Assembly (NCBI RefSeq): GCF_000259075.1 | Contig: NZ_AJKI01000056.1 | Span: forward strand, 1-64,000 | DNA: 64,000 nt | Direction of reading: 5' to 3' | DNA from: Marinilabilia salmonicolor JCM 21150 | Lineage (GTDB): Bacteria > Bacteroidota > Bacteroidia > Bacteroidales > Marinilabiliaceae | Shown here: piece by piece, positions 26,181 through 29,687 of the stretch | How the letters are laid out: each line of letters starts with the position of its first letter | Position numbering within the stretch: position 1 is the first letter of the stretch | Made by a program: the position numbers and the translations under genes | The notes under the pieces: model-generated | Told to the model about the DNA's origin: nothing | What the model saw: only the letters and a program-made list of their open reading frames with translations | Database searches by the model: none

Positions 26181-27026
26181 ATGCAAAGGAGGCCAAAGCG
26201 AATACCCGATTATTTTGTCACCAGAAAGAATACCATATTGCAGGTATTGTTTGCAACTCTTTTTGCATACATTTTCATCAACATATACCGACCATTTGGG
26301 TCAGGAGAATGGTACAACATCAGTTCTGCTGAGTTTATTTTTTATTCAGGACTACTGGTAATAGCGGGAATGCTTGTGGTTTTGCTGAGCAGGATATTCC
26401 TGATGTTCCTGATAAAAAAGAAAAATCCCGTTACCATTCGTTATTACATTCTGATGATTGCAGGAGAAATACTTCTGATGGCTGCCATGTATGCTTTCCT
26501 GGAAAAATTCACCATGCATGATCCGCGAAGTTTCGGTTTTCTTTTTTACCTGGCGCTTCAAAATACAGCTCTTATACTATTGATTCCTTATGTAATATCA
26601 TTGTTGTTTTTTGCCTGGAAAGAAAAGAGCATGAGCCTTAACAACCTTTTAAACCAGGTCAGGCACTCCTCCAATTTCATCTCATTTCATGATGACAAGG
26701 GAATCCTTCGAATCTCATTAAAACTTGAAGATTTACTTTATCTGGAGTCTTCCGACAATTATGTTTCCATAAAATATCTTCACAACAATCAACCTAAATC
26801 GGTTCTAATCCGGAATACGCTGAAGAATATTGAAAAGAAATTTGAAAATTCAACCCTGCTCAGATGTCATCGATCCTACATTGTTAACACCAAAAGGGTG
26901 AGCATGGTGAAGAAAGAGGGCACTGCAATGAAGCTATTAATTGAGAGTCCCAACAGTGAAAAGATACCGGTCTCAAGAGGATACCAAACCATGGTAAAAG
27001 ATTTCTTTGACCAAAAACACAAATAA
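26181..27026 (+). CDS. membrane-anchored LytTR DNA-binding protein
   Basis: 281 aa. Four hydrophobic helices are seen at about 16-36, 47-70, 84-104 and 115-140. A cytoplasmic linker and a LytTR DNA-binding domain (about 178-278) follow, with YLESSDNYVSIKYL and RCHRSYIVNTKRVSMVKKEG. There is neither a receiver nor a kinase domain, so it would bind DNA from the membrane. It is separated by 18 nt from the LytTR response regulator, so the two probably form an operon and may recognise the same site. No sensor kinase gene is adjacent. Confidence 0.88.
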   Translation: MQRRPKRIPDYFVTRKNTILQVLFATLFAYIFINIYRPFGSGEWYNISSAEFIFYSGLLVIAGMLVVLLSRIFLMFLIKKKNPVTIRYYILMIAGEILLMAAMYAFLEKFTMHDPRSFGFLFYLALQNTALILLIPYVISLLFFAWKEKSMSLNNLLNQVRHSSNFISFHDDKGILRISLKLEDLLYLESSDNYVSIKYLHNNQPKSVLIRNTLKNIEKKFENSTLLRCHRSYIVNTKRVSMVKKEGTAMKLLIESPNSEKIPVSRGYQTMVKDFFDQKHK

Positions 27027-27044: not shown

Positions 27045-27785
27045 ATGTACAAAGTTGTAATTGTTGATGATGAACCCGGTGCATTAGCCGTTTTAAGCAA
27101 AATGGTAAATGATTTTTTTAATTTTGAAGTCATCGGGAAATTTTCTTCCCCTGAAAATCTGGTCGATGAACTGGCCATATTAAGACCGGACATTCTTTTT
27201 CTGGACATTCACCTGGGCACAAGATCGGGAGTGGATATCGCCAAAGAATTATACAAAAACCGTTGTACTACCCAGATTGTTTTTGTATCCGCCTATGACC
27301 AATATGCCCTTAAAGCGTTTGAATACAACATTATTGATTACATTCTAAAGCCCGTAAGCCCTGATCGTTTACAAAAATGCATAGAAAAAATTGAAAAAAC
27401 GTTTGCTTCACGGAGCAATGAGCAACCATTAACGGAAAACATCAGCGCTCAAAAAGAGCATCAACTCATCCGATTCAATACACAATCCGGATTTTTACTG
27501 GTAAACCCAAAGGATATTGTTTTTTTAGAAGCCGATCATGTTTATACCAAAATTGTAATGGAAAAAGAGAGCGACCATTACGTAGCTCAGAACATAGGAA
27601 AAATTCTGGCTACCATCAATTCAGAAGACTTTGTCAGAATTTCCCGTTCGCATGTGATTAATACTACCTTTTTGAGAGAAGTCAACCGCACCCAGAAAAA
27701 ATGCATCATGTACAACGGTGCTTCAGAGGTGGGATTAAGCATCTCCAAATCGGGGATGAAAGTATTGGAAGAATACTTTGGGTAA
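27045..27785 (+). CDS. LytTR-family response regulator
   Basis: 246 aa. The receiver domain (1-120) has DDE at 8-10 and phospho-acceptor Asp54 (LFLDIHLGTRSG). The LytTR DNA-binding domain (about 140-245) has FLEADHVYTKIVM and RISRSHVINTTFLREVNR. LytTR regulators bind pairs of 9-bp repeats about 21 bp apart. Such a pair lies only 24 bp after this gene's stop (27809-27842), upstream of two RNA candidates. The gene is second in the LytTR operon, and its cognate kinase is not in the window. Confidence 0.93.
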   Translation: MYKVVIVDDEPGALAVLSKMVNDFFNFEVIGKFSSPENLVDELAILRPDILFLDIHLGTRSGVDIAKELYKNRCTTQIVFVSAYDQYALKAFEYNIIDYILKPVSPDRLQKCIEKIEKTFASRSNEQPLTENISAQKEHQLIRFNTQSGFLLVNPKDIVFLEADHVYTKIVMEKESDHYVAQNIGKILATINSEDFVRISRSHVINTTFLREVNRTQKKCIMYNGASEVGLSISKSGMKVLEEYFG

Positions 27786-27808
27786 AATTCATTCGTTGTG
27801 CCAAACCT

Positions 27809-27842
27809 GCCATTCAGAAAAAGAACCACGCCATTCAGAAAA
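27809..27842 (+). promoter_or_regulatory. LytTR-type operator (direct repeat, 21-bp period)
   Basis: GCCATTCAGAAAA occurs at 27809-27821 and again, exactly, at 27830-27842. GCCATTCA-N13-GCCATTCA resembles the E. coli BtsR/YehT LytTR consensus ACC(G/A)CT(C/T)A-N13-ACC(G/A)CTCA. The second copy ends about 40 bp upstream of a possible -7 element (CATCTTTG, 27881-27888). Confidence 0.6.
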
Positions 27843-27893
27843 CCACTGATTTTTGGCTTTTTTTACTCAAAATAATCTGTCATCTTTGACTCC

Positions 27894-28020
27894 TGTAATG
27901 CAAGAACCCAGCCCTTGAATCCGGACAACCTGCTCATTTCTTTTCTTTCAGAATCCCAATGGGGATTATGGGGGACATGGTCTTAAAGGGAAAGCAGCAA
28001 GTGTTGTCCGGATTTTCTAA
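27894..28020 (+). ncRNA. candidate structured RNA A, downstream of the LytTR site
   Basis: There is no ORF. A 12-bp perfect closing stem, AATCCGGACAAC (27918-27929) with GTTGTCCGGATT (28003-28014), encloses CTGCT/AGCAG (27930-27934, 27993-27997). Inside that lies a pyrimidine/purine stem TTTCTTT/AAAGGGA and an apical hairpin AATCCC-AATG-GGGATT (27952-27967). The closing stem is followed by TTTTCT, which could end transcription. The possible -7 CATCTTTG (27881-27888) places the 5' end near 27894; its -33 box is poor, as expected for an activated promoter. Existence as an RNA is inferred from structure. Confidence 0.5.
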
Positions 28021-28116
28021 TAAACAGTTATTCAGCATACAATTGAATCTGTTCCAATGGCAATAAGCATTATCAGGCTTGATGACTGATAAAAACTATA
28101 AATGGATTTGCAGCAC

Positions 28117-28222
28117 CGCAAGCCCAACCCTAAAAAAAACCGGGTAGTCTTTTGTTTCTTTCTTCTATGTATGTAATGGGGTATAAACATCTTAGCACTA
28201 ACAAAAGCAGCCCGGTTTTTCT
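28117..28222 (+). ncRNA. candidate structured RNA B, tandem to RNA A
   Basis: The closing stem AAAAACCGGG (28135-28144) pairs with CCCGGTTTTT (28211-28220). After a small internal loop, a second stem CTTTTGTT (28149-28156) pairs with AACAAAAG (28200-28207). The T-rich run after the closing stem resembles a terminator. The promoter would be TTG (28079-28081), 21 nt, TGGATTTG (28103-28110). The layout repeats that of RNA A, and both loops contain a pyrimidine run followed by AATGGGG. Confidence 0.45.
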
Positions 28223-28429
28223 TTTCAGATTCATGTAAAGATTCTTACCATATTTTTTCATAAATCAGGCTTAGTTGCCCAGAACCTCTTTTTTCAGATG
28301 CGCATCATTGTGATGATTCGTTTATAAACTCATTCCATTTCTCCCCTGCAAATCTGCCTATTTCCCCCACTCTGGTTACCAAAAAAGCAGAGTACACAAA
28401 AAAGCGAACATTTTCTCTTTCTCAATCCT

Positions 28430-28437
28430 TACCTTTG
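28430..28437 (+). promoter_or_regulatory. -7 element upstream of the ATP-grasp gene
   Basis: TACCTTTG fits TAnnTTTG and lies 26 bp before the ATG at 28464. A matching -33 TTTG is not evident. Confidence 0.45.
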
Positions 28438-28463: not shown

Positions 28464-29474
28464 ATGGCAGACATTCACAAAACAGGATACAATTTTCAGC
28501 CACTGAAAGGATATGAGCATTTTGAGGCCACAACACAAATTATTCTGAAAGAAATAATTGCCCGCAACCTCCCTTTTGAGATTCTGGATGCCCAAAACAA
28601 CCTCATCGCAGTCAAGCATAACAACAAAGAATACATCATTCACGAAGGCACCATTTCGGATGCCAACAGCCTCATTGCCTATTGGATTTCCAATGACAAA
28701 TGGATGACCAAACAATTTCTGCAAAGGAAGGGGATCAGTCATGCCAAAGGATTCCTTCTCCAATCGGAAGCTGCGTTAAAAAATATAAACGATCTTAAGT
28801 TTCCGTTGGTGGTAAAACCTATGGATACCGACCACGGCATTGCTGTAAGCACCAACCTTGGTAACATTAAAGAAATTCAGAAAGCAGTAAAAAATGCGTT
28901 CAAATACTCAAAAAAAGTAATTATTGAAGAGTATCACCCTGGTCAGGAATACAGATTTCTGGTCATCGATGAGCAGGTACGTGCTATTGCATTCAGGGAA
29001 CCGGCCAACATCACAGGAAACGGAAAAGATACCATTGACAGTCTGATTAAAACAAAAAACCAAAACCGTGGAGATGACTACACCCACCCGCTTCTAAAAA
29101 TAAAAACCGATGAAGAGGTTTTGCGCCACCTTGAAAAACAACATTTATCTTTGCAGTCAGTTCCGGGAAATGGTCAAAAAATATTTCTGAGAAATAACTC
29201 GAACCTGAGTACAGGAGGAGACAGCATTGATGTCACCGACGACTTGCCGGATTTATACAAAGAAGTGGCCATTGAAGCAGCCCAGGCGGCAGGACTCAAA
29301 ATTGCAGGCATCGACATAATCATAAAAAATCCACAGGCAGCCCCTTCCCCACAGAATTACATTGTGGTGGAACTCAATGCCCCGGCAATGCTCTCCATGC
29401 ATGACTTTCCTTACATCGGAAAAAATCGCCAGGTGGAAAAATATGTATTGGATGTCATTTTTAGCTCTAAATAG
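28464..29474 (+). CDS. ATP-grasp ligase, related to the GshF C-terminal domain
   Basis: 336 aa. The ATP-grasp signatures are FPLVVKPMDTDHGIAVSTN (about 112-130), KVIIEEYHPGQEYRFLVID, and the C-terminal metal/phosphate loop AGIDIIIKNP...YIVVELNAPAML. This resembles the glutathione-synthetase half of bifunctional GshF and cyanophycin-synthetase ATP-grasp domains. The next gene encodes glutamate-cysteine ligase, so glutathione synthetase activity (gamma-Glu-Cys + Gly + ATP) is the best inference. A related dipeptide ligase cannot be excluded. The TAG stop uses the first two bases of a MITE; the pre-insertion sequence would have given TAA at the same position. Confidence 0.82.
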   Translation: MADIHKTGYNFQPLKGYEHFEATTQIILKEIIARNLPFEILDAQNNLIAVKHNNKEYIIHEGTISDANSLIAYWISNDKWMTKQFLQRKGISHAKGFLLQSEAALKNINDLKFPLVVKPMDTDHGIAVSTNLGNIKEIQKAVKNAFKYSKKVIIEEYHPGQEYRFLVIDEQVRAIAFREPANITGNGKDTIDSLIKTKNQNRGDDYTHPLLKIKTDEEVLRHLEKQHLSLQSVPGNGQKIFLRNNSNLSTGGDSIDVTDDLPDLYKEVAIEAAQAAGLKIAGIDIIIKNPQAAPSPQNYIVVELNAPAMLSMHDFPYIGKNRQVEKYVLDVIFSSK

Positions 29475-29669
29475 TGCCCGTCTATAAAGTCGGGAAAATT
29501 TGCAAAAAGTCATGTGTCTGGTCAGAAAGTGCCAATTGCAAGGCTTGCGACCGCATGCCGCCTAAAGCTTTAGCGGTGGCGCAAGCCGCAAAAAACGGAG
29601 TTTACTTGGGTAAATGAGTATTTTGGCGGCAAGCGTAACGACGCAAATGGTACTTTATGGACAGACACT
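29473..29669. mobile_element. MITE family A, copy 1
   Basis: 197 bp with terminal inverted repeats AGTGCCCGTCTATAAA / TTTATGGACAGACACT, flanked by AAAT duplications (29469-29472, 29670-29673). It contains an internal near-palindrome around CCTAAAGCTTTAGCGG. No ORF. It lies between the two glutathione genes. Confidence 0.88.
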
Positions 29670-29687
29670 AAATAAACCAATAATTGA

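Follow-up and report, generated by a model that had tools for sequence, protein, structure and literature searches.

A probable LytTR-controlled small-RNA unit behind a LytTR gene pair in Marinilabilia

What is controlled by an exact direct repeat that lies just behind a LytTR response regulator gene and in front of a non-coding stretch? The question was raised by a sequence-only reading of 64,000 nucleotides of Marinilabilia salmonicolor JCM 21150, in which a LytTR-type operator was proposed to precede a structured RNA. The whole of these 64,000 nucleotides is called the window here, and all coordinates refer to its forward (+) strand. From the sequence comparisons described below, we regard the stretch as probably a LytTR-controlled small-RNA unit, i.e. 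a LytTR-activated pair of regulatory RNAs, named RNA1 and RNA2. The boxes of the operator, their spacing, a promoter-like box and the structure of RNA1 are conserved, and RNA2 is similar to RNA1.

Two LytTR genes are arranged head to tail upstream of the repeat. The first (26181-27026) encodes a membrane-type LytTR protein of 281 amino acids, with an N-terminal half that is hydrophobic (segments judged by eye) and a C-terminal LytTR domain (Pfam LytTR 2.3e-18, residues 179-275). Homologs 68-96% identical to it were found in all seven of the named relatives' loci that were searched, the one in Thermophagus being 68% identical. The second gene (27045-27785) encodes a LytTR response regulator of 246 amino acids, consisting of a receiver and a LytTR domain (Pfam Response_reg 3.4e-19, LytTR 8.7e-12), and 89% identical to that of Marinilabilia salmonicolor MSL42, the closest named relative in the comparison. 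The alignment of response regulator orthologs has 8 rows. The immediate neighbours of the unit are a DUF6051 gene and an ATP-grasp gene; neither a histidine kinase nor a peptide gene was found among the immediate neighbours, the upstream search covering peptides of 70 amino acids or more.

The repeat itself was found as had been described, two identical 13-bp copies of GCCATTCAGAAAA at 27809-27821 and 27830-27842 with a start-to-start distance of 21 bp, and 23 bases separate it from the end of the response regulator reading frame (27785). The copies contain box 2 (27812-27820) and box 3 (27833-27841), both reading ATTCAGAAA. When the pair ATTCAGAAA-N12-ATTCAGAAA was sought with up to two mismatches, this was the single match in the window, while 100 shuffles gave a mean of 0.04 matches, with at least one match in 4 of the shuffles. 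Genome-wide, GCCATTCA-N13-GCCATTCA has exactly one exact copy, the next best matches carrying two mismatches. Among the matches listed at up to three mismatches, the genome of the window has at least 60 ATTCAGAAA pairs against at least 9 for a reversed control, an excess to which we give no evidential weight because codon composition may explain it. A null made of random stretches was set aside for the box search, as it contains true sites.

While the two-box repeat stands as first described, a third, degenerate box had been overlooked, together with the whole of RNA2 (28114-28221). Box 1, reading ATTCGTTGT, lies at 27791-27799, 21 bp upstream of box 2, and the cores of the three boxes are thus found at 27793, 27814 and 27835. 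Nine promoters were compared, seven located before RNA1 and two before RNA2 of Anaerophaga. Box 1 has TTCG in 8/9 promoters and TCG in all nine, box 2 is identical in eight with the ninth reading TTTCAGAAA, and box 3 has TCAGAAA throughout. The mean majority fraction over these nine promoters is 0.96 for boxes 2 and 3, 0.79 for box 1 and 0.64 for the spacers. Matched against itself, the operator scores 8.33 out of 9 at a shift of 21 bp and at most 4.0 at all other shifts from 10 to 33. Direct repeats of about 9 bp, gaps of about 12 bp and a period of 21 bp agree with the format of LytTR operators, for which the excerpted text of PMC6193735 gives 9-bp boxes and a usual gap of 12 bp. The three boxes, the 21-bp period and the fixed distance to the promoter-like box support the view that the repeat behaves like a LytTR operator.

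A -7-like box, CATCTTTG, was confirmed at 27881-27888. In the part of PMC9723704 that deals with it, the Bacteroidota -7 consensus is TAnnTTTG, and the box before RNA1 deviates from it at the first base; this deviation is found in 9/9 promoters. The box was sought with the pattern [CT]A..TTTGA at 40-75 bp downstream, a range of 35 bp, so the evidence lies not in the mere presence of a match but in the constant distance of 48 bp from the start of box 3 to the start of the -7-like box, which holds in all nine promoters, both Anaerophaga RNA2 promoters included. The DNA between box 3 and the -7-like box is variable in sequence except for a T-run. Used as a promoter, which this constancy suggests, the box would place the start of transcription near 27895 and the centre of box 3 at about -58. 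A built-in sigma-70 and terminator scan, which covers neither Bacteroidota promoters nor large-loop hairpins, returned one promoter at chance level and 0 terminators.

RNA1 is a structured RNA candidate with a terminator-like end at approximately 27895-28017, delineated by its fold, by pair counts and by relatives in six other genomes. The two arms of its 12-bp closing stem (27918-27929 and 28003-28014, the latter followed by a T-rich tail) are 100% complementary, in agreement with the stem proposed earlier. The segment 27897-28022 folds with a z-score of -3.29, and 0 of 200 shuffles folded equally well. In the RNA1 alignment, built from seven genomes, 97.1% of the cells are paired and 5 pairs show double-sided changes; in both Anaerophaga the closing stem AATCCGGAC/GTCCGGATT is replaced by AATTCGGGC/GCCCGAATT, which amounts to two double-sided changes. 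The percentage paired, the number of double-sided-change cells and the covariation score were each reached by 0/500 shuffles, the number of pairs with a double-sided change by 26/500 and the number of further pair types by 385/500, and the pairing measures were lower in all slid controls. The homology and covariance-model check suggested by the sequence-only reading has thus turned up a conserved structure with compensatory changes. We judge the support for structure conservation to be good but not overwhelming, given the small sample and the closeness of the two Anaerophaga; few independent lineages stand behind the comparison, namely five Marinilabilia and two closely related Anaerophaga.

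On the loop side RNA1 carries the conserved motif GACATGGTCTTAAAGGGAA (27974-27992), the core of which, ACATGGTCTTAAAGG, is present in 6/7 RNA1 rows and also in RNA2 of Anaerophaga (2/2). RNA1 of M. rubra is without the loop motif, and AACATGGTCTTAA, a shortened form, is located in a hairpin further downstream, which is matched weakly (E 0.058) by R1, a model made from RNA1 alone with RNA2 excluded.

RNA1 is apparently non-coding, with no conserved protein frame. Gaps of 1 and 2 nucleotides inside its alignment argue against coding, and the ATG reading frames of the window that start within RNA1 encode 6-35 amino acids, the longer ones continuing beyond the stem and the T-rich tail. A coding explanation was dropped on account of the frame-breaking gaps and the lack of a peptide in common. 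One candidate, the 6-codon reading frame ATGCAAGAACCCAGCCCTTGA at 27898, is absent from Marinilabilia UBA5340 (G002) and from Anaerophaga. Scanning the whole window against Rfam gave only three tRNAs at gathering score and assigned no family (6S, tmRNA or others) to the RNA stretch. For 27780-28300 the best Rfam match had E = 0.33, far below the gathering score, and at E values up to 10 there were eight matches, all far below theirs.

The second structured RNA candidate, RNA2 (28114-28221), lies about 100 nucleotides downstream of RNA1 and consists of a long hairpin with a 43-nucleotide loop and a T-rich end, recognized by pair counts, by R1 and by R2, the model of RNA2. It is preceded by a -7-like box, TGGATTTG, at 28103-28110, and GGATTTGC is found there in all four Marinilabilia rows that have RNA2. 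In Marinilabilia the box search gave no LytTR boxes immediately upstream of RNA2, which there also lacks the full loop motif. RNA2 of Anaerophaga is preceded by a separate set of three boxes and by a promoter-like box, which again starts 48 bp after the start of box 3. In the RNA2 stem 92.2% of the cells are paired (0/500 shuffles); the covariation score and the number of double-change cells were each reached by 4/500 shuffles, the pairs with a double change by 16/500 and the pair types by 348/500.

R1 finds RNA2 in both Anaerophaga (E 2.8e-6 and 5.8e-6) and in G002 (E 3.8e-4), the best unrelated match in 71 genomes having E 0.022, and at genome scale RNA2 was recovered in 3/6 of the genomes that hold it. 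The match of R1 to RNA2 of the window (E 0.0025 over 124 kb of loci) is not strong alone in view of the reverse-strand control, in which R1 gave E 0.0074-0.11 on the reverse strand of these hairpins and R2 gave E 4.1e-4 to 0.047 on that of RNA2. Conversely, R2 recovers RNA1 in 4/7 genomes (E 3.5e-4 to 0.09), a test that adds little because the reverse-strand matches and an unrelated one in G023 (E 0.0022) are equally good. The weak R2 matches also include G080 and a second place in G016; the five that were checked (G023, G021, G005, G074 and G072) had no three-box site upstream. RNA2 is a probable paralog of RNA1, because R1 matches it in Anaerophaga and G002 and because the two have a motif, a 5' end and an operator layout in common.

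How widely the unit occurs was examined at the level of the DNA, the regulator and the RNA model. A DNA search of 61 genomes gave matches in 8, own genome included; a match in G046 was dropped, as it covered 32 bases outside RNA1 at E 0.003, and the remaining seven supplied the RNA1 alignment and R1. Relatives of the response regulator (E at or below 1e-40) were present in 10 of 71 family genomes, eight of them having orthologs of at least 56% identity and the other two only relatives near 40%. The boxes and RNA1 adjoin the LytTR pair in 7/8 ortholog genomes, five Marinilabilia and two Anaerophaga, which supports the proposal of a LytTR-type operator before a structured RNA; a repeat missing wherever the LytTR operon is conserved, which would have spoken against the proposal, was not what we found. 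In the eighth genome, Thermophagus xiamenensis, the response regulator, the membrane protein and the same downstream gene are kept, and both boxes and RNA are absent from the approximately 210 bp between the regulator stop and the next gene.

With stricter filters, R1 gave no match better than E 0.02 in the 71 family genomes outside the seven training genomes. The seven strong matches are the training sequences themselves, so this search shows absence elsewhere and RNA2 rather than new copies of RNA1. Weak matches in seven genomes of the family (E 0.02-0.44) were rejected, having by eye no boxes or RNA features in common with the unit. Among 295 genomes sampled from the order, likewise with stricter filters, a strong match was obtained only in the own genome, and three others gave E 0.04-0.07.

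RNA1 might instead be no more than the end of the LytTR operon, its terminator or 3' UTR, with the boxes put to some other use such as autoregulation, since it is the first strong hairpin past the response regulator gene and its stem is followed by a T-rich tail. We find this improbable. Between the gene and RNA1 there is a conserved promoter-like box, always at the same distance from the boxes; a second operator-RNA unit follows in Anaerophaga; and a plain terminator needs neither the conserved loop motif nor the conserved 5' end. Furthermore, the regulator gene and the boxes of Anaerophaga str. Valhall are about 500 bp apart, yet boxes, spacing and RNA are intact there.

The identity of the binding protein can also be questioned while the RNA is accepted as real: the boxes might be bound by a regulator encoded elsewhere, the adjacency of the LytTR genes being incidental. 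The adjacent proteins are putative binders, and further box sets exist, including three-box sites before a 31-amino-acid peptide in Thermophagus and Anaerophaga. Nevertheless, 9-bp boxes with 12-bp gaps are the usual format of LytTR operators in the excerpted text of PMC6193735, the unit adjoins the regulator in seven of the eight ortholog genomes, and R1, run with stricter filters, matched nothing strongly in the 64 remaining genomes of the family or the 294 remaining ones of the order, which makes an outside regulator unlikely in our view.

The further box sites are observations in their own right. Another three-box site, with a 21-bp period, is present in Thermophagus and in both Anaerophaga; it overlaps a terminator-like hairpin and precedes a 31-amino-acid membrane peptide of the form MSxKRxSxxLPERFLAxQ... 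Because three-box sites also precede this peptide, the RNAs may be one branch of a small regulon that is served by such boxes. Of the 10 genomes with a match to the peptide, the other 7 (some with E up to 0.08) showed no convincing box set, about 200 bp upstream being covered in G002. Relatives of the peptide in other genera are preceded by a GCAACC-N16-CGTCTA-like pair, which we take to be of the ECF type. The exact box pair is also found at a second intergenic site in two genomes, G000 and G004; about 150 bases behind it are conserved and hold no long reading frame, and transposase-like reading frames (by eye) come next in G004. M. rubra has, away from the LytTR operon, three boxes in a row that form two overlapping exact pairs, upstream of a gene that is presumably DsrE-like.

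The ATP-grasp gene (28464-29474; Pfam RimK and ATP-grasp_6), which is followed by a glutamate-cysteine ligase gene (Pfam GCS2), is probably a neighbour outside the LytTR/RNA unit. By direct reading of the sequence it has a separate -7-like box, TACCTTTG, at 28430-28437, ending 26 bp upstream of its start, with boxes of the same kind in relatives. That the RNAs are a cis-acting leader or attenuator of these two genes is very unlikely: the ATP-grasp gene is indeed next in 8/8 regulator-ortholog genomes, but RNA1 and RNA2 both have a hairpin and a T-rich tail of their own at the end, the gene has the box just described, and Thermophagus keeps regulator and ATP-grasp gene with no RNA between them. 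Behind the ATP-grasp gene, 29475-29680 is a repeat-like element of about 200 bp whose ends are similar to AGTGYCYGTCYATAAAG and CTTTATGGACAGACACTA. Similar pieces are present on both sides of RNA1 in Anaerophaga, on the upstream side in the interval behind the regulator gene, which suggests a small mobile element.

For the LytTR-controlled small-RNA unit that we prefer, we infer which protein binds, that it activates and does not repress, that the RNAs are transcribed and that they pair with mRNAs, and the following course of events is proposed. The response regulator from the neighbouring operon, perhaps together with the membrane LytTR protein, would bind the three boxes, which would lie two helical turns apart on one face of the helix. 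Once bound, it would activate the promoter with the non-consensus -7 box, and an RNA1 of about 123 nucleotides would be made, ending in its own terminator-like stem. In Anaerophaga RNA2 would be made from a separate operator laid out in the same way, and in Marinilabilia from the -7-like box alone or by read-through. Both RNAs would accumulate, and their action is most likely in trans: the exposed 5' end, AACCCARC in RNA1, and the loop motif ACATGGTCTTAAAGG would pair with mRNAs.

In the search for targets, 8 genomes yielded 34 sites that match the motif or its complement, and the reversed pattern likewise had 34; with no enrichment of such sites, no target is established. In 2/8 genomes an acyl-CoA synthetase gene has the complement of the motif at its start codon. 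A short lipoprotein gene is present in 4/8 genomes and has AAGACCAT near its start in all four; in G004 it contains an internal stop codon. Its duplex ranked 5/77, 6/16, 1/19 and 1/10, a weak ranking because the background holds loci fetched with the same pattern, and the lipoprotein gene itself. It is doubtful whether one may go further and suppose a lineage-specific Bacteroidota version of agr-RNAIII, in which the membrane LytTR protein and a response regulator that has no kinase gene next to it jointly switch on two redundant tandem sRNAs, with their common loop CAUGGUCUUAAA as an anti-start-codon seed on the AUG regions of envelope and lipid genes.

The unit had been put forward as a new type of circuit, which is too strong because AgrA-RNAIII and VirR-VR-RNA precede it (PMC4227749, PMC2838878, as far as the excerpts go). 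According to the excerpted text of PMC4227749, AgrA in the agr system of Staphylococcus aureus is a LytTR response regulator beside its own operon that activates RNAIII from direct repeats, and its promoter-proximal repeats are centred near -60, which the centre of box 3 at about -58 resembles. Here a LytTR response regulator adjoins an RNA candidate with operator-like boxes, and its activation of that RNA is predicted. In contrast to agr, there are three boxes with a promoter box of the Bacteroidota type, and two short RNAs in tandem that have no conserved reading frame; the partner is a membrane LytTR protein, and the immediate neighbours include neither a histidine kinase nor a peptide gene. 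The comparison of the RNAs for homology was made through Rfam.

VirR of Clostridium perfringens is another LytTR-type protein. The excerpt of PMC2838878 describes its binding, dependent on phase, to two direct-repeat boxes just upstream of the promoter, and one of its targets is a regulatory RNA, both of which resemble the situation here. The VR-RNA gene is not placed beside virR in that excerpt of PMC2838878, whereas here the RNA adjoins the regulator. The VirR system also belongs to another phylum, and the stretch analysed here has no Rfam match. In Vibrio, the Qrr RNAs are several related sRNAs under one signal-responsive regulator; tandem related RNAs and a single regulator are common to both cases, while the regulator family, the promoter type and the RNA sequences differ, and the likeness is an analogy only.

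Within Bacteroidota, transmembrane LytTR regulators in LRS-like operons are reported for Bacteroides, with repeats of the form TATCTTTG and 11-bp gaps (PMC6193735, excerpted text). LytTR regulatory systems as described in that excerpt share with our unit a membrane component together with a LytTR regulator, and repeats with 12-bp gaps before a promoter; their repeats precede the operon, whereas ours follow it, and the membrane protein of S. mutans is an inhibitor, whereas here the membrane protein itself has a LytTR domain (PMC6193735). A LytTR-controlled small RNA in Bacteroidota was not described among the matches listed from open-licence PMC text. What is new here is the RNA pair with its two members in tandem, a three-box operator whose spacing is fixed, and the phylum. 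The unit looks like a Bacteroidota counterpart of the Gram-positive circuits in which a LytTR regulator activates a regulatory RNA. If so, the logic of agr and VirR would recur in another phylum with a membrane LytTR partner, and the unit, compact and exactly spaced from the three boxes through the promoter to the RNA, would allow a direct test with one reporter.
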